Assembly (NCBI RefSeq): GCF_029892285.1
Contig: NZ_JARXVM010000003.1
Span: forward strand, 62,001 to 126,000
DNA length: 64,000 bases
DNA from: Rhizobium sp. SG_E_25_P2
GTDB taxonomy: Bacteria > Pseudomonadota > Alphaproteobacteria > Rhizobiales > Rhizobiaceae
Direction of reading: 5' to 3'
Part shown: positions 3,457-17,083 of the stretch, piece after piece
Layout of the letters: each line of letters opens with the position of its first letter
Position numbering within the stretch: position 1 is the stretch's first letter
Made by a program: the position numbers and the translations under genes
The notes under the pieces: model-generated
What the model was told of the DNA's origin: nothing
Databases searched by the model: none
What the model saw: the letters and a program-made list of their open reading frames with translations, nothing else

Positions 3457-4098
3457 GTGACGACCGCCAAGACAGGACCGAAGACGCGCGCCCGCTTTCG
3501 CCGCGAGGCGCCGGAAGACCGCCGCCGGCAATTGGGCGAGGCGGCGCTGCGCTGCATCGTCAAACACGGCAATGCCGGCGTGTCCGTGCGGCAGATCGCG
3601 GCCGAGGCGGGCGTCACGCAGGGGCTGATTACCCATCACTTCGGCGAGATCAACGAACTCGTCGCCTATGCCTTCGACATCATGTCCGAGGGCATCCTGC
3701 AATCCATTCTCAAAGCGGTGAACGAAGCGGAACCGACGCCGAAGGCGCGGCTCGACGCCTTCATCGCCGCCTCTTTCTCGCCGATCATGATGGATCGCGA
3801 TGTGCTCGGCGTCTGGGTGGTGTTCTGGAGCCTGATCTTGCATTCGCCGCGCATGAGCGCCTCGCAACGCCAGGAATATGGCGATTATGTCCGCACCGTC
3901 GAAGGCCTGATCGGCGATCTCGCCCGGGAAGAAGGTTTTGCGGTCGCCGATCTCCGCCTCGCCGCCATCGCCTTCACAGCGCTGATGGACGGGCTCTGGC
4001 TGGCCTGGTGCCTCAACCCGGACGCTTTTCGTCCGGAAGAAGGCGTGCGCCTCTGCAACAACTGGATCGAAGGCCTGCGCCGCGGCGCGCATGGCTGA
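3457..4098 (+). CDS. TetR/BetI-like transcriptional regulator
   Basis: A 213-residue TetR-family repressor. The N-terminal DNA-binding domain (about residues 15-65) shows the canonical core: a helix with GNAGVSVRQIAAEAGVTQG followed by ITHHFG. The C-terminal ligand domain (ARLDAFIAASFSP, then VWVVFWSLILHSPRM) resembles the BetI subgroup, which often responds to quaternary or methylated amines. I chose the GTG at 3457 because an AAGGG site lies about 9 nt upstream and it gives a normal family length; an ATG at 3400 is in frame but has a weak ribosome site. The gene diverges from the demethylase-like flavoprotein and MFS pair, which it probably controls. Confidence 0.8.
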   Translation: MTTAKTGPKTRARFRREAPEDRRRQLGEAALRCIVKHGNAGVSVRQIAAEAGVTQGLITHHFGEINELVAYAFDIMSEGILQSILKAVNEAEPTPKARLDAFIAASFSPIMMDRDVLGVWVVFWSLILHSPRMSASQRQEYGDYVRTVEGLIGDLAREEGFAVADLRLAAIAFTALMDGLWLAWCLNPDAFRPEEGVRLCNNWIEGLRRGAHG

Positions 4099-4542
4099 TC
4101 TCGGCTCTCCGCCATTTTGTCGCCTCTGCGATCGGTCGCGGCGCCCAGTTTCGATGCGCCTAAATTATACAACCCTAAATACACCCAAAAATGATCAGGG
4201 GAAGTGTAAAAGGCCGCAATGCCCAGGTAAGGTTGCGTTAACTATTATTTCGTCAAGTGGCAAACAGGCGAAAACATTCAGGTTCGGTGCAATTTATTGT
4301 CTAATATTGCTAATTTAACCAAAATTCAGCGAGCGGCGCAAATCGGGCCGTCTTAACCGACATCGGCCGATCAGAAACGGCCAAACAACCAGTAGACGCA
4401 ATCCGGCTTGAAGCCGGTTTCAGCAAGCGGGGCGAGACGTTCCGCGGCGACGGGTGCGCGCGCCCGTCGTGGACATTGGATTTTCATCAGCAGAGGCAGC
4501 GCGTCGGGCAGACAGCGCGCCGGGAACGAAGAGGAAGATAAA
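4099..4542. other. AT-rich intergenic region upstream of the giant gene
   Basis: About 440 bases without a convincing gene. The part around 4155-4330 is strikingly AT-rich against the GC-rich surroundings and likely holds the promoter of the giant gene, but I could not fix -35/-10 boxes. A 15-bp palindrome CCGGCTTGAAGCCGG lies at 4403-4417. An open frame over 4091-4318 has no ribosome site and no recognisable product. Confidence 0.5.
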
Positions 4543-7500
4543 ATGACTTGGACGATCACCACCAACGACAAGAATTATGACCTTTCCAGCTATAGCACTG
4601 ATAATATATCGTCGTCATTGCAGACTTCTGATGAACAAGGCAATTATACTGCTAGCTACAGCAGCAATATTTTGACAGTATATTATGACGGAGTGTTTGG
4701 TTATACAGTAGAGAATAACGCTACAGGCATTGTGGGTTCCGTAAATTTAACGCCTTCTTCAGAAGATTCGTCATCAGAAAAAGCTATTTATCTCTCCTAT
4801 ATACGTTCTAATACTCTATATATAAGAGTGTTAGAATTTGATGGAGTTGCAAGCCTTGATGAATTGGAATATCTTATTGTTGAGAATGCGGCGTCTATAG
4901 ACAACGTGTATTATTCGTCCACCGGTGGCCTTGTCATTGTCTACACCGACACGTCCGGCGAACAGCACAATGTGCTCGCGCTGGACTCCTCGCAGACGGA
5001 GCCGAGAGAATATACCACGATTTCGGCTCTGTCTGACGCCGCCGAAACCGGCGCGGACAATGCGCCTGTCGTGGTCGACGCTGCCGACCTCGCCAGCGAT
5101 GCGAGCGGCGAAACGCTGACGGTCGCTTCCGCCACGGTGAGCTCCACGTCGGCTGAATCCAATGCGCTGGTCTTCGTCACCGCCGATGGCGCGCTCAATG
5201 TCATCTATACCGGCGCGGCCCTTGACGACGGCGCGTCCGTGGTCGTGACGGTCGACGCCACCATCACCAACGTCTCAGGCGATACGGTCACCTCGACGGT
5301 CGCCGTCACCATCATCGGCAAAGAGACCGGGCTTTCGCTGACAACCGCGCAAGTCCAGGCGCTGACGAGCCTGTCGTCCGCCGAACTCGACGCTATCAAG
5401 AACGCCTATTCCGCTTACGCCGTCACCCTTGTCGACAGCGGCGGCAATGTCGCCGCGTTGACCGTGGACCAGATCGCGCTGCTCGACGATATGGGCGTGA
5501 CGACGATCGAACTCACCAATGGCGCCGGCTCCGTCACCATCGCCCAGCTTCAGGCCTTTGATGCAGCAAGCGTCGAGATGGCGGACGATTACACCATCAC
5601 CATCGCCGACACCGCCGCCAATATCGCGGCGCTGAGCGAGGCCGAAATTGCCGCCTTCGGCGATCTCGGCGTCGCCACGCTCGACGCGTCTGAAAACGCC
5701 GTCTCCCTCAGCCTTGCCCAGATCAAGGCGCTGGCCGCCGCCGGCATCACCATCGCCGAGGGCGACGACCTCATCCTGACCGGCGAAGCCTCGGCGATCA
5801 ACGCGCTGACCGTCAGCGATATTGCCGATCTCGTGACCGCCGGCGTGACCGGCATCGTCGTCTCGGATGATCTCGACCTGAGCTTCTCCTCCGAGATCAT
5901 GTCGTCGCTGCTGGCGATCGACGGCCTCACCATCACCAATTCCATCCTGAACTCCGTCCGCATCACCGTAACAGGCGAAGGCGTCGCGCTCGACGATTTC
6001 ACCGTCGCCGAGATCGCCACGCTCGCGGCGCTCGGCGTCACCACGCTCGACGCCAGCGATGACGTCGTCTCGCTGACTGTCGAGCAGGCCGAGGCGCTGA
6101 TCGACAACAACATCGCCGTGGGCGGCATGACCAGCACCACGCATTCCGACCAGATCACCCTTCTCGACAGCGCCGACACGCTCGCTGCGCTGACCACCGA
6201 CGACATCACCGCGCTGGTCGCGCTCGGCGTCACCACGCTCGAATCCACCGGTGAAACGCTGACGCTGACCGTGGAGCAGGCGCTCAAGCTGATCGATGAG
6301 GACATGTCGCTGACCGCCGCCGACGTGGTCACGCTCACCGGCGGCGTCGCCGACCTGACCGCCCTGACGTCGACGCAACTTGCCTCGCTGACGGCGCTCG
6401 GCATCGACGAGATCGCGCTCACCGACACCGCCGCCAATATCGAGACGTTGACGGCGGACCAGATCGAGATGTTGGTCGGCGCTGGTCTCTCCTCGGTGGA
6501 AACCTCGGGGGATCTCGACCTCACGGTCGCGCAGGCCGAGGCGCTGGATGACGGCGATGTCGCCGTTGAATTGTCCGGCTATGGTGAATATTCGCTTGAA
6601 GAGACGATCTTTCTAGAAAACAATTCCGCGCCGTCACCATACACAAACAGTTCGGCAACATTGGTCGATGGGAGTGTCGTTTCCCTAACAGGCGTTAATT
6701 CAGATATTTATATTTCCATTACATCGAGCGACGGGGGCGACGTCCTCGACGATGCTATCGTCAATAAATATACTGATTCAGATCAGGTGTATGAAAGCGT
6801 TACAGCTCTCTCAAACGGTACCTTTGTCGTTGTATGGGCGTCTTGGCTCCAAGACGGCAGCCGGTACGGCGTCTATTTTCAAGTGTTCGACAGCGTCGGA
6901 AATCCAATTGGGGCGGAAACGCAAGTTAATACGGACACGACCTCTGGCGACCAATTTGCCGTGTCAGTCATTGCGGACGACGAGGGTGGTTTTGCGATCA
7001 TTTGGATCGACAAGGACAACAGTTACGCAAATTATAAGACGACCTACTCGTCCACAGAGCCGGCAATTTCTATACTAGACACCGTCGCCAATATCGAAGC
7101 TCTGACCACCGACGACATCGCCGATCTTGCGGAACTCGGCGTCACCGTCATCGACGCGCGCTCTGACGAAGACAGCGCCGCCGAGGTTGAGATTTCGGTC
7201 GAGATCGGCGACGCTCTGCGCGACAACGGCATCGCCTTTGTCGACGAAGACCTGGTGACCCTGACGGGAACCTATGAGCAGATCGCCGCGATCATCTCGG
7301 GTTCGAGCGATTACAGCGATATCGGCGTCGACTCCTATCTCGTCGATGACACGATCGAGGCGCTCACGGCCCTTGACGCGTCCAGCGTCGACAGTTCCAT
7401 GAGCTTCCGCGCCAATGGAACAGCGGCCGAAATCGAGGAGATCGGCGATGACGCCATTGCGGCGCTCGCCACACTCGGCGCAACGCTAATGGTCAGCGAC

Positions 7501-10500
7501 AATAACGGCGCCGTCACCATCGACACAGACCTCGCCGCCCGCCTGCTCGAAGCCGGCGTCAGCTTCGCTGATGACGCTGTGGTGACGCTGGAATCGACGA
7601 TAGACACAATCTCATCGGATATCGCTGCTTATGATACGCTCGGTATCGACATCTATGAACTGACCGACAGCGTCGCCAATCTCTACGATTTCATTTTGCA
7701 AGCCTATTCGTCGGTCGCCGACAGCGCGAGCCTGTCGCTGATCGCCACGGGCACGGCCGCTGACATCTACTCCGAGGCCAGCAGCCTGACCTTGTCCTAT
7801 ATTGGCGAAAACGTCGCTGCAGGTTACATCATCGAAGACAGCGCCATCAATATGCTGAACTTCGTTGCGTCCAGCCAAATCATGACCGTCACGAATCTGG
7901 GCCTACCCGTAACATTCAGCAACTCGGAAGGGGATACATTGCTGATCAGTCTCGATTTCGTTGCTGAAATCGACGACTACATCCTGACGTTGGGTGAACA
8001 GCAATTCGTGTTCGACGCAGACCAAACCGTCACCGTCTACGCAACGGTCGCCTCTCTGAGCGATTATAGTGTCGCCCAGGCTGCCGCCTTGGCGACGGCG
8101 TTGAACATAGACGCCTATCAAGTGGCGGACACGGCCGCCAATATCGGCGAGATGAGCAGCACGGCCGCCCAACTGTTCGTCAATATGGGCGTCAGCTACA
8201 TCGATGTCACAGACAAGGCATCGGCGACGCTGGACCGCGAAGCGGTCGATATCCTTGCCAAGAAGGCCGTCACCTTCTCGGACGCCGATACGGTCTATGT
8301 CGCCATGGACGACCTACTGTTGAGCAGATCCGACGCGGAGGACTATCTCGAAGCCTATGCCGCCGCCAATATCGATGGTGTAAACCCCTCTGACGCCAGC
8401 TATACCGTCACCGGGGCCACGATCTTGACGATGCTCGAAAACGGCCTGGTTTTCGCCGAGGGCGATGGGACCCTGACGGTCACGGCGACGGTTGACCAGA
8501 TCGTCGACATCAGCGACTACCTGTCCACTCTGTCGGATATGAACATCGATGTTTTCCAGGTGTCCGACACCGGCGACAACATCAAGGCGATGACCATCGC
8601 CGATCTCAACAAGCTCGATAAAGTCGGCGTGACCTCCATCGACGTCAGCGACGGCGCGGTGACGCTGAAAGCCGCCACCGCCGACTATATCGTCGCGCTC
8701 GGTATTGTCTTCGAAGACACGGATACCGTCACCGTCCGCGCCTCGGCGCTGTCGGTTGAAGAAATGACCGCTGACGACATCGCCGGCTATGGGACGAGCA
8801 AGATCGACATCATCGACGTGGCCGAAAGCGCGGTGACGCTGACCGCGTCGCAGGCCGTCGCCTTCGCCTCCGCCGGCCTGACCTTCTCGTCGGAAGACGT
8901 GCTGACGCTTGAGGACACGGCCGACAATATCGCCGCGCTTTCCGCGTCCGAGCTCGCGGCGATCAAGGCCGCCGGTTTCGATGCGATCACTGTGACCGGC
9001 GGCGACCTGAGCCTCACGGTGGCGCAGGACCTCGCGCTCGTTGAAGCGGGCTTGACGGTCACGCTCGACGAGGGCGCCACGATCCTCATCGTCGACACCA
9101 ACGCCAATATCGCCACGCTTGCGGTATCCGATATCGAGGACGCCGCGGAACTCGGTGTCACGATCATCGACGCCACCGATGACGCCATCGATTTCACGCT
9201 CGAGCAGATACAGGCGCTGTATTTAACGAAGATCTCCGTCGACGACAGCGACGAGTTCGCCCTTGTCGACACGGCGACTGAGATCGAAGGCCTTTCGGCC
9301 TCCGGGATCGCGACGCTGAGCGAAATGGGCCTCGATGCGATCGAACCCACGGAAGACGCAAGCCTGACCGTCGAGCAGATCGACTTGATGATCGAACTCG
9401 AGATCGACCTGCGCTACGACGATGGCATCGTCATCACTCTTGAAGATAGCGCCGCCAATCTCGCCGATGTTAGCGCCGACGCGCTGCTCGTCTACGCGGA
9501 GATCGGGGTCAGCATCATCTCCTCCACCGATGACGTCGCGGATTTCAGCCAGGCGCAGATTACCGCGATTTACAGTGGCTCCATCGTGCTGTCTGATGAT
9601 TTTGAGGCCCGACTGGCAGACACCGCCACCAATTTCTTGGCGATGACCACCTCGGACTTCGCCAATGCCGAGACGGTTGGCGTCGACACTTTCGTGCTCG
9701 CCGACACCGGCGCGCAACTCGCCACGCTCTCGATCAGCACCATCCGTTCGCTTTCGGAACTCGGCATCCAGACGATCGACGTCACCGACGGTTCGGTCAC
9801 GCTGACCACCAACCGCGCCATCGAATTCGCCGTCGACAAGATGGTGTTCGAAGACGATGACACAGTGACCATTTCCGCCAATGGCTCCTGGTTCGAGTCG
9901 GTGGAAGTAGACGAGATCGCGGCCTTGGGGGCGATCAATGTCGATGTGATCGACGCGACGAACAACGTCGTGGAAGCCAGCGCCGAACAGCTCTCGGCCA
10001 TGTATGAGGCCGGCGTCAGCTTTGCCGACAACGACAGCGTGTCGCTGACGGCCACGCATGCGAATATCTACGACGTCCTCGACCTCATCGCGGGTGAAAA
10101 TCCCTATGGCGTCGAGACCATCGAGATCACCGATGATGGCGCGGTGGCTCTCACCGTGGCGCAATGGGAGGGTCTTGTCGAAAACGGCGTTACTTTCTCC
10201 AACGCCACGCTGCTGATCGTCGACAGCGAAGCCACAATCGAGGCGCTTGACGCCGATGAACTTGCTGACCTTGTGGCCTATGGCGTCAGCGGAATCGGCG
10301 TATCCCAAGATTCCGCAACCCTCACGGTCGCCTTCGCGCAAGCAGTGATTGCGGCCGGCCTGTATTTCTACGTCCTGAAAAACGATATCGGCGTATCCGA
10401 CGAAGCCGATACGATCGCCGCGCTTTCCGCCACGCAAATCGCCGATCTCGCGACTGCGGGCGTGTCTTCCCTTTCGGCCGAGAGCGCAGTTTCGATTTCG

Positions 10501-13500
10501 CTGACGCTCGCCGAGGCCCTGGTGGACAACAGCTTGAACTTCACCACTGCATCCTCCGTTACGCTTCTTTTGACGGCTGATGAGGCGGAAGCCGTCACGG
10601 CGGATGATCTTTCGGCCTTTGGACTCATCGGCGTGGACAGTGTGACCATTGCCGACACTGCCGCCAACATTGAGGCCATGGATTCCGCTTCGGTCGCCCT
10701 CAACGGCGCAGTGATCGATCTTACTGACGATACCGGGACCTTCTCTCTCGCTCAGGTTCAGGCGCTCATCGACGCCGGCGCGAGTTTCGCATCCGCCGAC
10801 GACATCATCGTCTCCGTCAGCGTCGCCGATTATGCGCAACTCTCCGACTCCGATCTCGACGAACTCACGGCACACGGCGTCGACGAGATTTCTTTCGCCT
10901 ACGCCCGCGCCGATGTCGAGGCGCTCGACAGCACAGGGATCGCCACGCTCGGCGCCCGCGGCCTCACCCAGATCGACATCGCCGAGAACAAGGCGACGCT
11001 CGATGCGTCGCAGATCTCCGCCCTGGCGACGGCCGGCATCTCTATCGCGAGCGCAGATGAGGTGACCCTGTTCGACACGGCGGCCAATCTGGCGTCCTTG
11101 TCGGTTGCGACGATGACGTCGGTCGGCGTCGACCAGATCGACGTCAGCGACACCAACATGACGATTTCGGCCGCGACAGCCTCGGCGCTGGCGTCAGCCG
11201 GCATTGCCTTCGCCGATGAAGACGAGATCACGGTCGAGGTTGGCACGGAAACCTATGTGGATTTCGACGATGACGATCTCGATGCGCTCGAGACGATCGG
11301 CGCCGACATCCTCGCGCTCATTCCGGAATCTGTGGGCGATGGCCTGAAGGTCAGCCTGACCGAAATCCAGTCGCTTTATGACCGGGGCCTGACCCTTGCG
11401 GGTTCGGTTGTGGTGACGCTGGTCGACGATATCGACAGCCTCGCCAGCTATGCGGCGCTTGATACCGACACGCGCTCGGCCCTCGCCGCAGCGGGGAATG
11501 TCACGGCCATCAGCGTGTCCGACACCGCCGCAAACATCGCCGGCCTGACTGCAACGACCATTGCCGCCCTGGGGGGATTGGGCGTGACGTCGATCGCCGT
11601 CTCCGATCAGGACGACGTCACCCTGTCGGCATCGCTCGTATCCTCGCTGAGTTCCGAGGGGATGCTGGTGGATGCGGACATCACCATCTCCGACAGCGCC
11701 ACGAATGTGGCGGCTCTGGCGGAAGAGGATCTAAGCGAGAATACGCTGCTCGACGGCGCCGTCATCGACCTGACAGACGCGTCCAGTGTGTTCAGTCTTG
11801 CACAGGCGCAGGCTCTGATCGAAGCGGGCGCGAGCTTCGCCTCGGCCGACACTGTGACGGTCTCCGTGACCCTCGCCGTCTATTCGAGCCTGTCCGACGC
11901 GGAAATCGCCGCATTGACGGCGGGCGGCGTCGACACCGTCTCGGTGAGCGTCTCGCAGGCCGATGTGGAGGCGCTCGACGCTGGAGCCATCGCCACGCTG
12001 ACCGATCGTGGGCTGACTGAACTCGATATCACCGAGAACGCCGCCACGCTCGACGCGACGCAGGTGTCGGCCCTGGCGACAAACGGGCTGGCGATCGCGG
12101 CGAGCGACGTGGTGACGTTGTTTGACACAGCCGCCAATCTGGCGTCCGTCTCGGTCTCGACCATGACGTCTGTCGGCGTCGACAAGATCGATGTCAGCGA
12201 CACTGCTATGACGATCTCGGCGGCGACGGCTTCGGCCCTGGCTACGGCCAGCATCGTGTTTTCGTCTGCCAATGTGGTGACGCTGTCTGACACGGCGGCC
12301 AACCTTTCGTCGATCTCGGTCTCGACCATGACATCCGTGGGCATCGACAAAATCGATGTCAGCGGCATTGCGATGACGATCTCGGCGGCGACGGCTTCAG
12401 CCCTGGCTACGGCCGGCATCGTGTTTGCGTCTGCCAATTTGGTGACTCTGTCTGACACGGCAGCCAACCTTTCGTCGATCTCGGCCTCGATGATGACGTC
12501 GGTGAGCGTCGACAAAATCGACGTCAGCGACAACGCCATGACCATTTCTGCGACGATGGCCACGGCGCTTGCGTCGGCCGGCATCTCGTTTGCCAACGCG
12601 GATGTGGTGACGCTGTCCGACACGGCCGCCAATCTGGCGTCGCTGTCTGTGGCGACGATGACATCCGTCGGCGTCGACAAGATCGATGTCAGCGACAACG
12701 CCATGACGATCTCGGCGACGACTGCGTCGGCGCTTGCGTCGGCCGGCATCTCGTTTGCCAGCGCGGATGTGGTGACGCTGTCCGACACGGCCGCCAATCT
12801 GGCGTCCCTGTCTGTGACGACGATGACATCTGTCGGCGTCGACAAGATCGATGTCAGCGACATCGCCATGACGATCTCGGCGGCGACGGCCACGGCGCTT
12901 GCGTCGGCTGGGATTGCCTTCGCGTCCGATGATGAGGTGACGGTCACGACGGCCGTGGAGTTCTTCATCGATCTCGATGATGACGCCCTGGACGCTCTCG
13001 ATGCGCTCGGCGCTGATGTTATCGACCTCGTTCCCGAAAGCGTTGGAGACGGACTCGATCTTGGCCTCGACTGGGCGCAAAAGCTCTATGATCGCGGCCT
13101 AAGCCTGACGGGCGACGTTGTCGTCACGCTGGCTGACAGCGTCGACAATCTGCTCGCCTATGCGGCGCTTGATCCGGACATGCGTTCGTCGCTGGCCACG
13201 GCGGGAAACATTTCCGCATTTCGCCTCGTCGATGCCGCCGACGCCATCGGCGGGCTGACTGCTGAAACGGTGGCGACGCTGACGGGGCTCGGCGTCACGG
13301 CGATAGCGGTCACCGATGCGGATGGGGTGTCGTTGTCCACGGCGGTTATCACAGCGCTCGCATTGGGGGCGGTTTCCGTGGACGCGGATATCACCATCGC
13401 CGACAGCGCATCGGCCGTCGCCGCGCTTGCGGATGCTGCGCCGAACTCCAACAGCCTGATCGACGGCGCGGTGATCGACCTGACGGATGTCGCCGGGCTA

Positions 13501-16365
13501 TTCACTCTTGCCCAGATTCAGGCGTTGATAGATGCGGGAGCCCAATTCGCCGTTTCCGACGACATTTCCGTCTCGGTCAGTCTCGGCGTTTATGCCGGCC
13601 TAAGCGACATGGAGATTGCGGCGCTGACAACAGCCGGTGTAGATCACATCGTGCTCAGCGTCTCGCAAGCGGATGTGGAGGCCCTCGATGCCGACGCAAT
13701 CACCACGCTGGCGGCACGTGGCCTGAGCGAGATCGACATCACCGAAAGCAAGGCGACGCTCAACTGGGCGCAAGTCGCGGCCATGGCGACCAATGGACTG
13801 TCGATCAAGGCGACCAACGTGGTCACGCTGGCAGATAGCGCGGCCAATCTCGCTGGCCTCTCCGCGCAGAGCCTCGTGGCAGTCGGCGTCGACAAGATCG
13901 ATATCAGCGACAATGCGCTGACGATCAGCGCCGCGACCGCCTCCGTGCTTGCCTCTTCCGGCATTGCTTTCGCTTCCGATGACGATGTGACGCTTTCGGA
14001 TACGGCTGCAAATCTTGCCACTCTCGCCGTCGCCTCGATGACGACGATCGGCGTGGACAAGATCGACGTGTCCGACAGCGCCATGACGATCAGTGTCGCG
14101 ACGGCCTCGGCGCTTGCGTCGGCGGGCATTTCGTTCACTTCCAATGATGTTGTCACTCTCTCGGATACGGCTGCGAATCTTGCCACTCTCGCCGTCGCCT
14201 CGATGACGACGATCGGCGTGGACAAGATCGACGTGTCCGACAGCGCCATGACGATCAGTGTCGCGACAGCCATGGCGCTTGCGTCGGCGGGCATTGCTTT
14301 CACTTCCAATGATGTTGTCACTCTCTCGGATACGGCTGCGAATCTTGCCACTCTCGCCGTCGCCTCGATGACGACGACCGGGGTGGACAAGATCGACGTG
14401 TCCGACAACGCCATGACGATCAGTGTCGCGACGGCCTCGGCGCTTGCGTCGGCGGGTATTGCTTTTGCATCTGAGGATGTTGTCACTCTCTCGGATACGG
14501 CTGCGAATCTTGCCACTCTCGCTGTTGCCTCGATGACGACGATTGGGGTGGACAAGATCGACGTGTCCGACAACGCCATGACGATCGACGTTGAGACCGC
14601 TTCGGCGCTGGCGACTGCGGGTATCGTCTTCGCCGACGGCAACGCGATCACGGTGGAAATCACGCAGTCCGATCTCGCCGATCTCGATGATGCCTGGCTG
14701 GATGCGTTGGCCGCGACCGGGGTCGATGAACTGAACGTGTCCGATGCCGATACATCCGTGGTTCTGGACTTGGAGCAGGCGCAGGCCATTGCCGCTCGCG
14801 GCCTGACACTGTCGGATGCAAGCGTGGTGTTGTCAGACAGCCTCGAAAACATGGTGGCTTTTGCTTCCCTTGACGAGGAAGAGAGGGAAGTTCTTGTCAC
14901 TTCGCTGAACATCTCGGATCGCAAAATCTCGGATGTCGGCTCTGCTTTGTCCGCGATGACCGCCGACATGGTCACCGTCCTCGCCACAGCGGATATCAGG
15001 ACGATCGATGTAGCGGATGACGCGATGGCGGCCTTGTCGCTGGACGTCTTCTCCGCGCTCGACGCGGCAGCCGTGGTGGTGAACGGAAATACGTATCTGG
15101 CAGATACCGGCTCTGTGATCTCCGCTCTTGATACGGCTGACGTGACTGTCCTGAACGCCTATGGAGCATCGGTTCTGGATGCGACGGATGACGTGGTGAC
15201 GCTGGGCCTGGATCAACTCGAATTCCTGACGGAAGCCGAACTCATCTTCGCCGAGCAAGACACCGTCACTTTGCAGACGTCGCTTTCGGAAGCACAGGAA
15301 TTGTCGGCGGATATCATCGCCAATTTCGAAGCTTACGGACTCGATGTCTTCGAGATCGTGGTCGACGCCAGCGATATCGAGGCGCTGTCCGAAACGGACA
15401 TCGCCTCCCTCGGTGAAACAGGCGTGGACGAGATCGATATTCAGTCCGACCAGGCCACCCTGACTGCGGCTCAAATTGCCGCCTTTGCCGCGGCGGGAGT
15501 GAAATTCGCAGACGAAGATGTCGTCACCGAAGCCGAGGGGCATGATGCGCCCACTGCGGTCGACGACGCGGCCAAAGCAAAGGAACATGCGACGGTTCAG
15601 GTCGATGTGCTCACAAACGACACCGCAGATAGCGACCTTAGCCTGTCGCTGGTGTCGGCGAGCGTCAAGTCGGGCAAGGGAAGCGTGACGGTTAACGCGG
15701 ATGGAACCTTGTCTGTCGCCTATACCGGGCCTGACATCGATGGCGACAAAACGGCGGAGGTGGTCGTTTCTTATGTTGTCACCGATGGCGATGAAACGGA
15801 CACGGCCGATCTGACCGTAACCTTCACCGCAACGGCCGAAGATGGCGATATCGTCAACGGCACGAACAAGAACGATCGACTTGAGGGCAGTAGCGCCGAC
15901 GAGCGGTTCAATGCAAAGGGCGGCGCAGACATCGTCAAGGCTGGCGGCGGCGCCGACAAGGTCTACGGCGATGATGGTCATGATACGCTGTATGGCGAAG
16001 CGGGCGACGACCGGATCGAAGGCAACAAAGGAAAGGATATTCTCATCGGAGGCGCTGGCGACGATAGCCTCCGAGGCGGGTATGGGAATGACAAGCTCAC
16101 AGGCGGAGACGGAGAAGACACTTTCGTCTTCAACGACAACGTCGATGACAGCACCGACGTCATTCGCGACTTCGACGCGCGGGGCAAGGCGCATGATCTC
16201 ATCGACCTCTCCGACTATGGCAATGGCAAACTCACTTACAAGGCGGTAAAGGCCATGATGAGCCAGGACGGCAACCATGTGGAAATCGATCTTCCAGGCG
16301 ATGCGGAAATCATCGTCAACAATGTCGATGTCGACGATTTGACAAAAGACATGTTCGTGCTTTGA
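4543..16365 (+). CDS. Giant RTX / type I secreted repeat protein (~3940 aa)
   Basis: A very large acidic, cysteine-poor, presumably extracellular protein. The ATG at 4543 has a GAGGAAG site 5-11 nt upstream; an in-frame ATG at 4408 lacks one. Order: a unique AT-rich-coded N-terminus (about 1-125); an Ig/VCBS-like beta domain (about 167-263); then about 3400 residues of degenerate repeats around the motif DTAANIAAL, alternating beta strands and helices with a 55-residue period. The repeats are interrupted near 676-845 by a segment with a VWASWLQDGSRYGVYFQVFD-type repeat. The end is a second Ig/VCBS-like domain (from about 3667, with VDVLTNDT), glycine-aspartate RTX nonapeptides (about 3769-3863) and an acidic tail ending DMFVL. 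There is no Sec signal, which fits type I secretion through a C-terminal signal. No ABC/HlyD exporter genes lie nearby. A role as adhesin or surface protein is inferred from architecture only. Confidence 0.85.
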   Translation: MTWTITTNDKNYDLSSYSTDNISSSLQTSDEQGNYTASYSSNILTVYYDGVFGYTVENNATGIVGSVNLTPSSEDSSSEKAIYLSYIRSNTLYIRVLEFDGVASLDELEYLIVENAASIDNVYYSSTGGLVIVYTDTSGEQHNVLALDSSQTEPREYTTISALSDAAETGADNAPVVVDAADLASDASGETLTVASATVSSTSAESNALVFVTADGALNVIYTGAALDDGASVVVTVDATITNVSGDTVTSTVAVTIIGKETGLSLTTAQVQALTSLSSAELDAIKNAYSAYAVTLVDSGGNVAALTVDQIALLDDMGVTTIELTNGAGSVTIAQLQAFDAASVEMADDYTITIADTAANIAALSEAEIAAFGDLGVATLDASENAVSLSLAQIKALAAAGITIAEGDDLILTGEASAINALTVSDIADLVTAGVTGIVVSDDLDLSFSSEIMSSLLAIDGLTITNSILNSVRITVTGEGVALDDFTVAEIATLAALGVTTLDASDDVVSLTVEQAEALIDNNIAVGGMTSTTHSDQITLLDSADTLAALTTDDITALVALGVTTLESTGETLTLTVEQALKLIDEDMSLTAADVVTLTGGVADLTALTSTQLASLTALGIDEIALTDTAANIETLTADQIEMLVGAGLSSVETSGDLDLTVAQAEALDDGDVAVELSGYGEYSLEETIFLENNSAPSPYTNSSATLVDGSVVSLTGVNSDIYISITSSDGGDVLDDAIVNKYTDSDQVYESVTALSNGTFVVVWASWLQDGSRYGVYFQVFDSVGNPIGAETQVNTDTTSGDQFAVSVIADDEGGFAIIWIDKDNSYANYKTTYSSTEPAISILDTVANIEALTTDDIADLAELGVTVIDARSDEDSAAEVEISVEIGDALRDNGIAFVDEDLVTLTGTYEQIAAIISGSSDYSDIGVDSYLVDDTIEALTALDASSVDSSMSFRANGTAAEIEEIGDDAIAALATLGATLMVSDNNGAVTIDTDLAARLLEAGVSFADDAVVTLESTIDTISSDIAAYDTLGIDIYELTDSVANLYDFILQAYSSVADSASLSLIATGTAADIYSEASSLTLSYIGENVAAGYIIEDSAINMLNFVASSQIMTVTNLGLPVTFSNSEGDTLLISLDFVAEIDDYILTLGEQQFVFDADQTVTVYATVASLSDYSVAQAAALATALNIDAYQVADTAANIGEMSSTAAQLFVNMGVSYIDVTDKASATLDREAVDILAKKAVTFSDADTVYVAMDDLLLSRSDAEDYLEAYAAANIDGVNPSDASYTVTGATILTMLENGLVFAEGDGTLTVTATVDQIVDISDYLSTLSDMNIDVFQVSDTGDNIKAMTIADLNKLDKVGVTSIDVSDGAVTLKAATADYIVALGIVFEDTDTVTVRASALSVEEMTADDIAGYGTSKIDIIDVAESAVTLTASQAVAFASAGLTFSSEDVLTLEDTADNIAALSASELAAIKAAGFDAITVTGGDLSLTVAQDLALVEAGLTVTLDEGATILIVDTNANIATLAVSDIEDAAELGVTIIDATDDAIDFTLEQIQALYLTKISVDDSDEFALVDTATEIEGLSASGIATLSEMGLDAIEPTEDASLTVEQIDLMIELEIDLRYDDGIVITLEDSAANLADVSADALLVYAEIGVSIISSTDDVADFSQAQITAIYSGSIVLSDDFEARLADTATNFLAMTTSDFANAETVGVDTFVLADTGAQLATLSISTIRSLSELGIQTIDVTDGSVTLTTNRAIEFAVDKMVFEDDDTVTISANGSWFESVEVDEIAALGAINVDVIDATNNVVEASAEQLSAMYEAGVSFADNDSVSLTATHANIYDVLDLIAGENPYGVETIEITDDGAVALTVAQWEGLVENGVTFSNATLLIVDSEATIEALDADELADLVAYGVSGIGVSQDSATLTVAFAQAVIAAGLYFYVLKNDIGVSDEADTIAALSATQIADLATAGVSSLSAESAVSISLTLAEALVDNSLNFTTASSVTLLLTADEAEAVTADDLSAFGLIGVDSVTIADTAANIEAMDSASVALNGAVIDLTDDTGTFSLAQVQALIDAGASFASADDIIVSVSVADYAQLSDSDLDELTAHGVDEISFAYARADVEALDSTGIATLGARGLTQIDIAENKATLDASQISALATAGISIASADEVTLFDTAANLASLSVATMTSVGVDQIDVSDTNMTISAATASALASAGIAFADEDEITVEVGTETYVDFDDDDLDALETIGADILALIPESVGDGLKVSLTEIQSLYDRGLTLAGSVVVTLVDDIDSLASYAALDTDTRSALAAAGNVTAISVSDTAANIAGLTATTIAALGGLGVTSIAVSDQDDVTLSASLVSSLSSEGMLVDADITISDSATNVAALAEEDLSENTLLDGAVIDLTDASSVFSLAQAQALIEAGASFASADTVTVSVTLAVYSSLSDAEIAALTAGGVDTVSVSVSQADVEALDAGAIATLTDRGLTELDITENAATLDATQVSALATNGLAIAASDVVTLFDTAANLASVSVSTMTSVGVDKIDVSDTAMTISAATASALATASIVFSSANVVTLSDTAANLSSISVSTMTSVGIDKIDVSGIAMTISAATASALATAGIVFASANLVTLSDTAANLSSISASMMTSVSVDKIDVSDNAMTISATMATALASAGISFANADVVTLSDTAANLASLSVATMTSVGVDKIDVSDNAMTISATTASALASAGISFASADVVTLSDTAANLASLSVTTMTSVGVDKIDVSDIAMTISAATATALASAGIAFASDDEVTVTTAVEFFIDLDDDALDALDALGADVIDLVPESVGDGLDLGLDWAQKLYDRGLSLTGDVVVTLADSVDNLLAYAALDPDMRSSLATAGNISAFRLVDAADAIGGLTAETVATLTGLGVTAIAVTDADGVSLSTAVITALALGAVSVDADITIADSASAVAALADAAPNSNSLIDGAVIDLTDVAGLFTLAQIQALIDAGAQFAVSDDISVSVSLGVYAGLSDMEIAALTTAGVDHIVLSVSQADVEALDADAITTLAARGLSEIDITESKATLNWAQVAAMATNGLSIKATNVVTLADSAANLAGLSAQSLVAVGVDKIDISDNALTISAATASVLASSGIAFASDDDVTLSDTAANLATLAVASMTTIGVDKIDVSDSAMTISVATASALASAGISFTSNDVVTLSDTAANLATLAVASMTTIGVDKIDVSDSAMTISVATAMALASAGIAFTSNDVVTLSDTAANLATLAVASMTTTGVDKIDVSDNAMTISVATASALASAGIAFASEDVVTLSDTAANLATLAVASMTTIGVDKIDVSDNAMTIDVETASALATAGIVFADGNAITVEITQSDLADLDDAWLDALAATGVDELNVSDADTSVVLDLEQAQAIAARGLTLSDASVVLSDSLENMVAFASLDEEEREVLVTSLNISDRKISDVGSALSAMTADMVTVLATADIRTIDVADDAMAALSLDVFSALDAAAVVVNGNTYLADTGSVISALDTADVTVLNAYGASVLDATDDVVTLGLDQLEFLTEAELIFAEQDTVTLQTSLSEAQELSADIIANFEAYGLDVFEIVVDASDIEALSETDIASLGETGVDEIDIQSDQATLTAAQIAAFAAAGVKFADEDVVTEAEGHDAPTAVDDAAKAKEHATVQVDVLTNDTADSDLSLSLVSASVKSGKGSVTVNADGTLSVAYTGPDIDGDKTAEVVVSYVVTDGDETDTADLTVTFTATAEDGDIVNGTNKNDRLEGSSADERFNAKGGADIVKAGGGADKVYGDDGHDTLYGEAGDDRIEGNKGKDILIGGAGDDSLRGGYGNDKLTGGDGEDTFVFNDNVDDSTDVIRDFDARGKAHDLIDLSDYGNGKLTYKAVKAMMSQDGNHVEIDLPGDAEIIVNNVDVDDLTKDMFVL
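6570..7075 (+). other. Compositionally distinct insert within the giant gene
   Basis: This in-frame block codes for roughly residues 676-845 and breaks the regular repeat series. It is clearly more AT-rich than the flanking repeats and encodes a different module, with LSNGTFVVVWASW and GVYFQVFDSVGNPIG, the type of short beta repeat seen in other large calcium-binding surface proteins. The DTVANIEAL repeats resume immediately after it. It reads as a domain insertion retained in frame. Confidence 0.6.
10705..11754 (+). repeat. Higher-order module 1 of the giant gene (1050 bp)
   Basis: First of three long modules that each begin with codons for GAVIDLTD. It contains an internal 165-bp unit once, starting 366 bp into the module (11071), followed by a 519-bp tail carrying the landmark PESVGDGL. 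Confidence 0.8.
11755..13464 (+). repeat. Higher-order module 2 of the giant gene (1710 bp)
   Basis: It has the same start (GAVIDLTD), the same 366-bp lead and the same 519-bp tail as module 1. The internal 165-bp unit is present five times (starts 12121, 12286, 12451, 12616, 12781). The 660-bp length difference from module 1 equals exactly four units. Confidence 0.8.
12121..12945 (+). repeat. Tandem array of five 165-bp in-frame units
   Basis: Five head-to-tail units of 55 codons with consensus core SDTAANLASLSVATMTSVGV. Adjacent units are nearly identical at DNA level, suggesting recent expansion by slippage or unequal recombination. Confidence 0.85.
13465..15170 (+). repeat. Higher-order module 3 of the giant gene
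   Basis: It starts with GAVIDLTD, and the 366-bp lead is again conserved before five 165-bp units (13831-14655). The tail is more diverged from modules 1 and 2 and is a few codons shorter, so its end is approximate. Confidence 0.65.
13831..14655 (+). repeat. Second tandem array of five 165-bp units
   Basis: Units start at 13831, 13996, 14161, 14326 and 14491. The last four are close to identical (core SDTAANLATLAVASMTTIGV) and differ from the module 2 units, so each array appears to have been homogenised or expanded independently. Confidence 0.85.
15847..16131 (+). repeat. RTX calcium-binding nonapeptide array
   Basis: Encodes successive GGxGxDxLxG-type nonapeptides, including GDDGHDTLYG, EAGDDRIEG, GAGDDSLRG, GYGNDKLTG and GDGEDTFVF. 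These bind calcium and fold after export in type I secreted proteins. Confidence 0.9.
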
Positions 16366-16387
16366 CAACAGACGCATCCTGCTGAAA

Positions 16388-16420
16388 ATGAGAGCCGCGC
16401 TTTTGGGGCGCGGCTCTCAT
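16388..16420 (+). terminator. Strong hairpin after the giant gene
   Basis: A perfect 13-bp stem, ATGAGAGCCGCGC with GCGCGGCTCTCAT, around a TTTTGGG loop starts 23 bases after the giant gene's stop. There is no U-run after it, so it is a probable but not canonical terminator. Confidence 0.65.
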
Positions 16421-16531
16421 GGCGTTAAGCAAGCCTGGGCGCACAGGCGAAAACAGCTTCTTCCTTGCCAATTTCGGACGCCGGGCCTATGTCGCTCTTG
16501 CGCGATGTTTATTGGGGCGGCGGAGAACGCC

Positions 16532-17083
16532 ATGGCACATGAGTTGGACGGGCCTAAAAGGACGTTGTCGTTCGGTGACTTTTCGGCGCTCGTTGCGGCG
16601 CCGTTCGGCCGCGGAGAGGCTCGCGCCGCCAGAATTCGGATTGTGGCGCGGCCGAAGGAACAGCAAGAGCTGCATCTCGCTGCTGAGCCTGCCTATTTCG
16701 TGATGCTTTATCTCGATGCCGTCGACCATTGCGATTTGCTCGCGACCGGCGAGGCGCTTCCAGGTCGGCGTTATCGACGCGGCTCGATCTGCGTCATTGA
16801 TCTGTCGCAAGGAGCGCGCATCAGACTGTCTTCGAGCCTGAATGCGCTCGGCTTCGTCATTCCTTTTCGTACGTATGAAGAGGCGCGGTCGGCCGCAATG
16901 CATCCCACGCCTAGGCTGTTGCGACAGCGTAGAAACGAGGGAGATGCGATCGTCTATCGATTGGGCCTGTCGATTCTGCCCTGTTTCGATACGGATCCGC
17001 CGGACGCCACGCCGTCGCTGCCGTATGTCATCGGCGCTCTGTGCGCTCATTTGCTCGACGCGCCCGGCTCAATGCTACATTGA
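16532..17083 (+). pseudogene. AraC-type sensor domain lacking its DNA-binding domain
   Basis: 183 codons from ATG 16532. The translation resembles the N-terminal ligand-sensing half of the AraC-family protein encoded at 19239-20105: compare AYFVMLYLDA, RRGSICVIDLSQGA, LGFVIPFRTYEEA and YVIGALCAHLL with the corresponding blocks there. It stops where the linker to the helix-turn-helix domain should begin, and the following 60 bases contain only a long inverted repeat before the convergent LysR gene. It is most simply a truncated paralogue. It could still act as a stand-alone sensor, but nothing supports that. Confidence 0.55.

Follow-up and report, generated by a model that had tools for sequence, protein, structure and literature searches.

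The window analysed here, a stretch of 64,000 nucleotides from Rhizobium sp. SG_E_25_P2 (part of an assembly of 5.56 Mb and 39 contigs), contains a gene for a giant protein with a repetitive central part, the features of which are collected in Table 1. The longest open reading frame covering this gene starts at a TTG codon (4408), and a purine-rich stretch is located upstream of the ATG listed in the table, while a sigma-70 scan upstream of the gene did not find a promoter-like site. The hairpin behind the stop codon is perhaps a transcription terminator, though no T-run follows it. Of note, the listed start of the next ORF (16388-17083) falls inside this hairpin, its true start probably being a later ATG near 16.53 kb, since similarity to the congener G003 begins, as judged by eye, near 16.5 kb. 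The giant protein is devoid of cysteines and acidic, with a net charge of -547. In a plasmid collection, the closest named match to the window was a plasmid of Rhizobium sp. 32-5/1, with 82% nucleotide identity across 3.3 kb and 93% amino acid identity in a glutamine synthetase-like protein.

Table 1. Features of the giant gene and its site, in window positions
Feature	Position	Strand	Description
Segment whose place in G003 is taken by 158 bp	4106..16615	.	giant gene and flanks, ~12.5 kb; from alignment
Giant RTX solenoid protein gene	4543..16365	+	ATG start at 4543; 3940 aa
Solenoid region (predicted), aa 298-3662	5434..15528	+	51 repeat domains of ~55-58 aa, iE<0.05 (profile; count somewhat circular)
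Module 1	10705..11754	+	366-bp head, one 165-bp unit (11071-11235), 519-bp tail
Module 2	11755..13464	+	head, five 165-bp units (12121-12945), tail
Module-2 array, units 2a-2e	12121..12945	+	75-87% nucleotide identity
Module 3	13465..15174	+	head, five units (13831-14655, the first one old), diverged tail with indels; end fixed from the length of tails 1 and 2
Younger module-3 array, units 3b-3e	13996..14655	+	3b/3c 96% identical
Cadherin_4 / Big_9 domain	15541..15822	+	PF17803, E 4.8e-9; PF17963, E 5e-9
RTX calcium-binding nonapeptide repeats and C-terminal end	15838..16362	+	PF00353, E 5.2e-15
RNA hairpin directly 3' of the stop codon	16388..16420	+	15-bp stem, z -3.85

The repeat domains were counted with a profile seeded with 11 units and built in five rounds from the giant protein together with those encoded at 11 related loci, and the count of 51 is thus somewhat circular, as the giant protein itself belongs to the training set. 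The consensus of the repeat derived from this profile is DTAANIAALSADDIAALAALGVDVIDVSDDALTLSLAQAQALAAAGIAFASADTVTL. At the more permissive iE<0.5, the domains span 2633 of the 3365 residues of the region, leaving gaps at, for example, aa 675-845 and 1048-1195. The former (window 6565-7077) appears as a non-solenoid insert with FVVVW-like segments, which we take to resemble a motif of other RTX giants. Gly/Asp-rich nonapeptide repeats near the C-terminus, matched by PF00353 in four stretches and by RTX domains in the PDB as well, identify the protein as a member of the RTX class.

Within the repeat series, three long modules each open with GAVIDLTD (at 10705, 11755 and 13465), and a 165-bp unit begins in frame 366 bp into each of them, once at 11071 and five times each from 12121 and 13831, as a preliminary description of this DNA had proposed. 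Module 2 is likewise longer than module 1 by exactly four units (1710 versus 1050 bp). When every offset between 30 and 3999 bp was tested within 10705-15170, the offsets of 1710 and 165 bp ranked at the top for 150-nt windows of at least 65% identity, that of 1050 bp being seventh. Repeat finding grouped 10 copies into a single family, spaced at 1050, 165 and 1215 bp from one start to the next, and Tandem Repeats Finder reported a period of 165 at 12105-12942 (5.1 copies, 84% matches, 0% indels) and at 13883-14621 (4.5 copies, 89% matches, 0% indels).

The architecture had been described as exact, which applies to lengths and phase and not to sequence, the heads being 64-69%, tails 1 and 2 62% and the units 59-96% identical at the nucleotide level. 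Similarly, conservation of the 519-bp tail is limited to modules 1 and 2: tail 3 is at background in the same register (32-34% nucleotide identity), its homology to the other tails emerging in gapped alignment only (35% aa). The count of five units in module 3 is correct, yet they do not form one array: 3a is just 59-67% identical to 3b-3e, and module 3 therefore consists of one old unit followed by a younger array, in which 3b and 3c share an exact run of 92 bp (from 14011) and differ at six positions in 165 bp. Furthermore, the 165-bp units and the modules are all members of the longer series of 55-58-residue repeats, which the preliminary description had not mentioned; the 165-bp unit is a single repeat of this series and no special insert. 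A chance or low-complexity origin of the repeats is rejected by the best 150-nt self-match within the gene, which reaches 0.97 as against 0.52, 0.51 and 0.56 in three codon-permuted copies. An assembly artefact is unlikely because every pair of neighbouring copies carries substitutions at all three codon positions; one extra near-identical copy may nevertheless have been collapsed in the assembly.

The history of the copies was assessed with a codon test, in which the use of the same codon at positions with the same residue is compared with the expectation from the codon usage of the gene. The pooled counts, which inside a set take each pair twice and stem from non-independent pairs, were 508 of 828 within module 2 (0.61, expected 0.39) and 450 of 540 within 3b-3e (0.83, expected 0.40), whereas module 2 against 3b-3e gave 295 of 738 (0.40, expected 0.41). 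Protein conservation alone is thereby rejected as the source of similarity in pairs like 2a/2b, 2d/2e and 3b/3c, while between the module-2 set and 3b-3e, and between 3a and 3b-3e (61 of 138; 0.44, expected 0.41), the codon test detected no similarity beyond it. Unit 3a against module 2 gave 79 of 174 (0.45, expected 0.41) and 1a against 3b-3e 65 of 147 (0.44, expected 0.41). Since no codon memory beyond codon usage connects the module-2 and module-3 arrays, they expanded separately, in agreement with the independent in-frame expansion suggested earlier. A nucleotide resampling test, which counts differing residues too, agrees with the codon test for the arrays; across them it gave z 0.0 for 2a-3b but 2.0 for 2e-3b. 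In neighbour-joining trees (300 bootstrap replicates), 3b-3e were grouped at 0.99 and 3b-3d at 0.97, with 3a-3e at 0.60, while 2a+2b reached 0.90 and 2a-2d 0.83.

The proposed order of events, modules first and units later, is fairly well supported for module 3 and no more than possible for modules 1 and 2. The codons of head 3 are near expectation (32 of 73 against head 1, 0.44, z 0.1; 39 of 81 against head 2, 0.48, z 1.2), and these comparisons fairly support a split of module 3 that predates its array. The nucleotide test continues to detect similarity, with z 1.8 for heads 1/3 and 3.5 for heads 2/3, disagreeing with the codon test on the latter pair as it does on tails 1/2. For modules 1 and 2, whose heads gave 44 of 78 in the codon test (z 2.9) and z 3.2 in the nucleotide test, the codon data hint at mosaic ages or exchange rather than a single clean nested history. 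Modules 1 and 2 may have swapped units by gene conversion, or module 1 may have started from an older array of several units and lost some of them. The one unit of module 1 would then not represent the ancestral state, and we regard such a history as a distinct, if lesser, possibility. It is suggested by unit 1a, which is as near to the module-2 units in its codons (113 of 195; 0.58, expected 0.40) as these are to each other, by tails 1 and 2, which lie close to codon expectation (42 of 95; 0.44, expected 0.41, z 0.7), and by the bootstrap values of 0.42 for a clade of all module-2 units and 0.29 for 1a+2e. However, the sites are few, the contrast of tails 1/2 with 1a-2e yields a Fisher p of 0.045 that is uncorrected and concerns the best pair picked, and the similarity of tails 1 and 2 persists in the nucleotide test (z 2.5).

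The fold of the repeat was predicted with AlphaFold for two stretches built on shallow natural alignments, i.e., aa 1342-1835 (494 residues, 17 rows; mean pLDDT 94.4, pTM 0.81) and aa 2471-2866 (396 residues, 14 rows; mean pLDDT 94.3, pTM 0.83), which together amount to 890 of the 3940 residues. Each modelled repeat corresponds approximately to strand-helix-helix-strand-strand-helix, with a structural period equal to the repeat, and some 50-60 repeats, each 55-58 residues long, are thus predicted to form an alpha/beta solenoid in the central part. AlphaFold2 has been reported to yield confident yet false beta-solenoids for perfect repeats (PMC11795689). Such an artefact is less likely here because the first stretch is composed of diverged repeats, the other rows of its alignment being 26-31% identical to aa 1342-1835, and because the model is of the alpha/beta type.

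Foldseek searches against the PDB and viral models returned leucine-rich repeat (LRR) and TIM-barrel-type structures among the matches listed. Across the 50 matches listed per search, the TM-score by query length did not exceed 0.21 (0.20 for the PDB) and the rmsd ranged from 11.7 to 36.5 Å, and the resemblance is therefore local only. The best matches listed included LRR proteins, for instance ribonuclease inhibitor, LegL7 and BRI1, which share with the model an alternation of strands and helices, but TrpC and other TIM-barrel enzymes scored equally. Membership in the LRR class was rejected, as no LRR family was present among the eight Pfam families found up to E 1 and no global match (TM at most 0.20) among the matches listed.

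No convincing match for the 57-residue repeat was found in Pfam, NCBIfam or, for window 10705-15170, PHROGs. Pfam DUF348 reached 30.5 bits on the whole protein (cut-off 24) without any single stretch passing, and 23.7 bits, just below the cut-off, in a relative from G003 (L048); it was taken as a chance match on repeats. The same applies to the weak matches on repetitive sequence to Pfam GSH-S_ATP, Phage_T7_Gp5_9, Glyco_hydro_95_C and DUF1382 and NCBIfam thiazolyl_GetA and QueF inside the solenoid, and to phrog_35430, 6234 and 23161 of PHROGs. A literature search of titles and the beginnings of abstracts did not find a description of such a repeat, and the 57-residue block may represent a new kind of spacer for giant secreted proteins.

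Relatives of the repeat were sought with an alignment of 25 window stretches hand-picked from the series. Matches were obtained in 4 of 9 genomes of the genus (E 1e-8), 4 of 151 genomes of the family (1e-10) and 2 of 385 genomes of the class (1e-8), each count including the genome under study and being a lower bound, given the strict thresholds on single 57-residue units. The repeat occurs in large proteins of some Rhizobiaceae, of a Beijerinckiaceae metagenome-assembled genome and of one genome from a further family of the class. A 3000-residue query matched all nine genomes of the genus (own included), with many of the matches in the RTX part, and yielded no full-length match in the eight congeners, the best being 48% identity over about 340 residues. 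A plasmid tblastn search with module 2, with the low-complexity filter on, returned no match.

The Beijerinckiaceae contig (CANGFT010000030.1) was the sole locus to emerge from a scan of a contig collection. It carries a 3914-codon open frame, truncated where the contig stops, with 64 repeat domains and two local arrays of very similar units with a period of 174 bp (5.4 and 3.5 copies), the second of which reaches the contig end; the C-terminus, including any RTX repeats, lies beyond it. As this protein has arrays of its own, local array growth happened more than once in the repeat family. The genome under study encodes at least two further proteins of the family, on contigs C30, C34 and C36 (loci L042, L043 and L044). 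RTX repeats were present in the two relatives tested within the genus, L042 and L048. A repeat-rich locus of the congener G004 (L041; C1:1137500-1153500) has family ORFs in different frames and two ends that are 95% identical over 490 residues, and its frame disruption would reflect either sequencing errors or a decayed tandem pair. The G004 copy of an OYE-like reductase gene, which in the window lies to the left of the giant gene, has a TGA inside as well.

The surroundings of the gene were compared with those in the eight congeners. Alignment of the left flank extends to window position 4105 in G003, at 94% identity, with the right flank picking up again at 16616; in the seven others, the left-flank alignment ends at 4044-4098. 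The giant gene was not found beside this conserved flank in any of the eight; the span inspected past the flank was some 7-8 kb each in G004, G001, G008, G007, G002 and G005, and 1.2 kb in G006, where the contig ends and from which little can be inferred. Weak matches of the C-terminal part occur at other places, in loci L081 and L089. Positions 4098-34571 of the window mark the boundary of a variable region, whose left flank, with the OYE-like reductase gene and a TetR-family gene, is conserved in the eight congeners inspected; in G004, this flank joins directly to 34571. The right-hand neighbour of the giant gene, of the LysR type, was found in two of the nine genomes (own and G003). From these alignments, the giant gene lies at the edge of the variable region and appears, relative to G003, as a one-gene presence/absence feature for which gain and loss are alike possible.

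The copy number of the 165-bp unit had been held to be probably variable between strains. This expectation gained no support: no orthologue of the giant gene was found, and two ortholog pairs of other family members retain their repeat number, in parts of these proteins without an array of near-identical units resolved in both genomes. L043 of the genome under study and L048 of G003 have 19 domains each and align over 1512 residues with 89.5% identity and no gap, and L042, likewise of the genome under study, and L041 of G004 (67%) have seven each without a gap in the repeat part, the 72 gap positions falling within the RTX repeats. Contigs C34 and C36 of the genome under study match one and the same G003 gene (L048) and are broken over its near-identical repeat of 432-bp period, where this pair is uninformative; the repeats of the C34/C36 protein may be under-counted in this assembly. 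The protein had also been called length-tunable; the eight units beyond one per module make up 440 of 3940 residues (11%). That unit number shifts often between strains or within a culture, tuning the reach of a surface protein in the manner of a contingency locus, appears unlikely to us. Such shifts should be permitted by the 92-bp exact run and the 96% identity of 3b and 3c, array length differs among relatives, and known RTX adhesins differ greatly in repeat number (PMC7493085). On the other hand, repeat number is equal, without gaps, in both comparable pairs, the six differences already separating 3b and 3c, the youngest pair, leave no very recent copy in sight, and the extra units account for only the small share of the protein given above.

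With regard to export, three genes of the genome, on contigs C20, C23 and C1 and none of them in the window, pass the cut-off of the PrtD-type exporter family TIGR01842, whereas in 14 control genomes all 14 had matches below the cut-off and none above it. Type I exporters are thus encoded in the same genome, though unlinked to the giant gene, and because of its RTX repeats the giant protein is probably exported by such a system.

Among known systems, the giant RTX adhesins LapA, MpIBP/MpAFP, SiiE and AhLap resemble the giant protein in their great size, their repetitive middle part, their C-terminal RTX repeats and a cadherin/Big-type domain beside these. In MpAFP, a 104-residue repeat occurs in roughly 120 copies (PMC4083281), and tandem beta-sandwich repeats have been called a defining feature of RTX adhesins (PMC7493085). 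The extender of these adhesins is built from beta-sandwiches, whereas that of the giant protein is, in the residues modelled, a predicted alpha/beta solenoid of 57-residue repeats; no beta-sandwich extender of the LapA/MpIBP type was seen in these residues, just one Big_9/Cadherin_4 domain was found in the protein, and the N-terminus gave no Pfam or NCBIfam match, none to a retention or anchor domain included. The modular DDxP RTX proteins, rhizobial ones included, are also large and grow through added repeat modules, which measure 136-304 residues and end in DDxP (PMC7730722). The giant protein, with its repeats of 55-58 residues, has no DDxP motif, and assignment to this growth-by-insertion family was rejected.

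By analogy with the RTX giants (PMC7493085, PMC12077191, PMC12153261), the solenoid is most likely an extracellular spacer or a rod for matrix formation or adhesion. Tandem duplication of exactly one repeat would add one coil and leave fold and reading frame intact, and unequal recombination or slippage between neighbouring repeats would be tolerated since a whole coil is added. Coil duplication would have occurred separately in modules 2 and 3, latest among 3b-3d, and the product would leave the cell through an exporter encoded elsewhere in the genome.

Rather than extending reach, the units might offer a surface for ligand binding or homotypic interaction, and array growth would then raise avidity. 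LRRs often bind other molecules, and the best Foldseek matches listed feature LRR proteins prominently, though the similarity is local only. We nevertheless consider this role improbable, as searches of Pfam and NCBIfam identified no known binding domain within the solenoid and the repeats vary along the whole protein, as a scaffold would. The reading that we favour, and consider fairly likely as a whole, is that of an RTX protein, probably type I-exported, with an alpha/beta-solenoid middle that grew by tandem addition of coils in modules 2 and 3 and acts as a spacer.

The expansion of repeats is a familiar feature of giant secreted proteins, and the mode of growth at this locus is ordinary; less usual is the 57-residue alpha/beta unit, for which there is no convincing catalogue match and, among the matches listed, no global match to a solved structure. 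If the predicted fold is true, it would be another way of building a long extracellular rod, and the graded copies, from 96% down to 59% identical, would display the stages in which such a rod grows coil by coil. Rather tentatively, and with some doubt on our part, the protein may be the founding example of type I-secreted giants with an alpha/beta-solenoid extender of 57-residue repeats, a fold variant so far missing from the catalogues, growing by single coils and carried by a one-gene cassette coming and going between related genomes.
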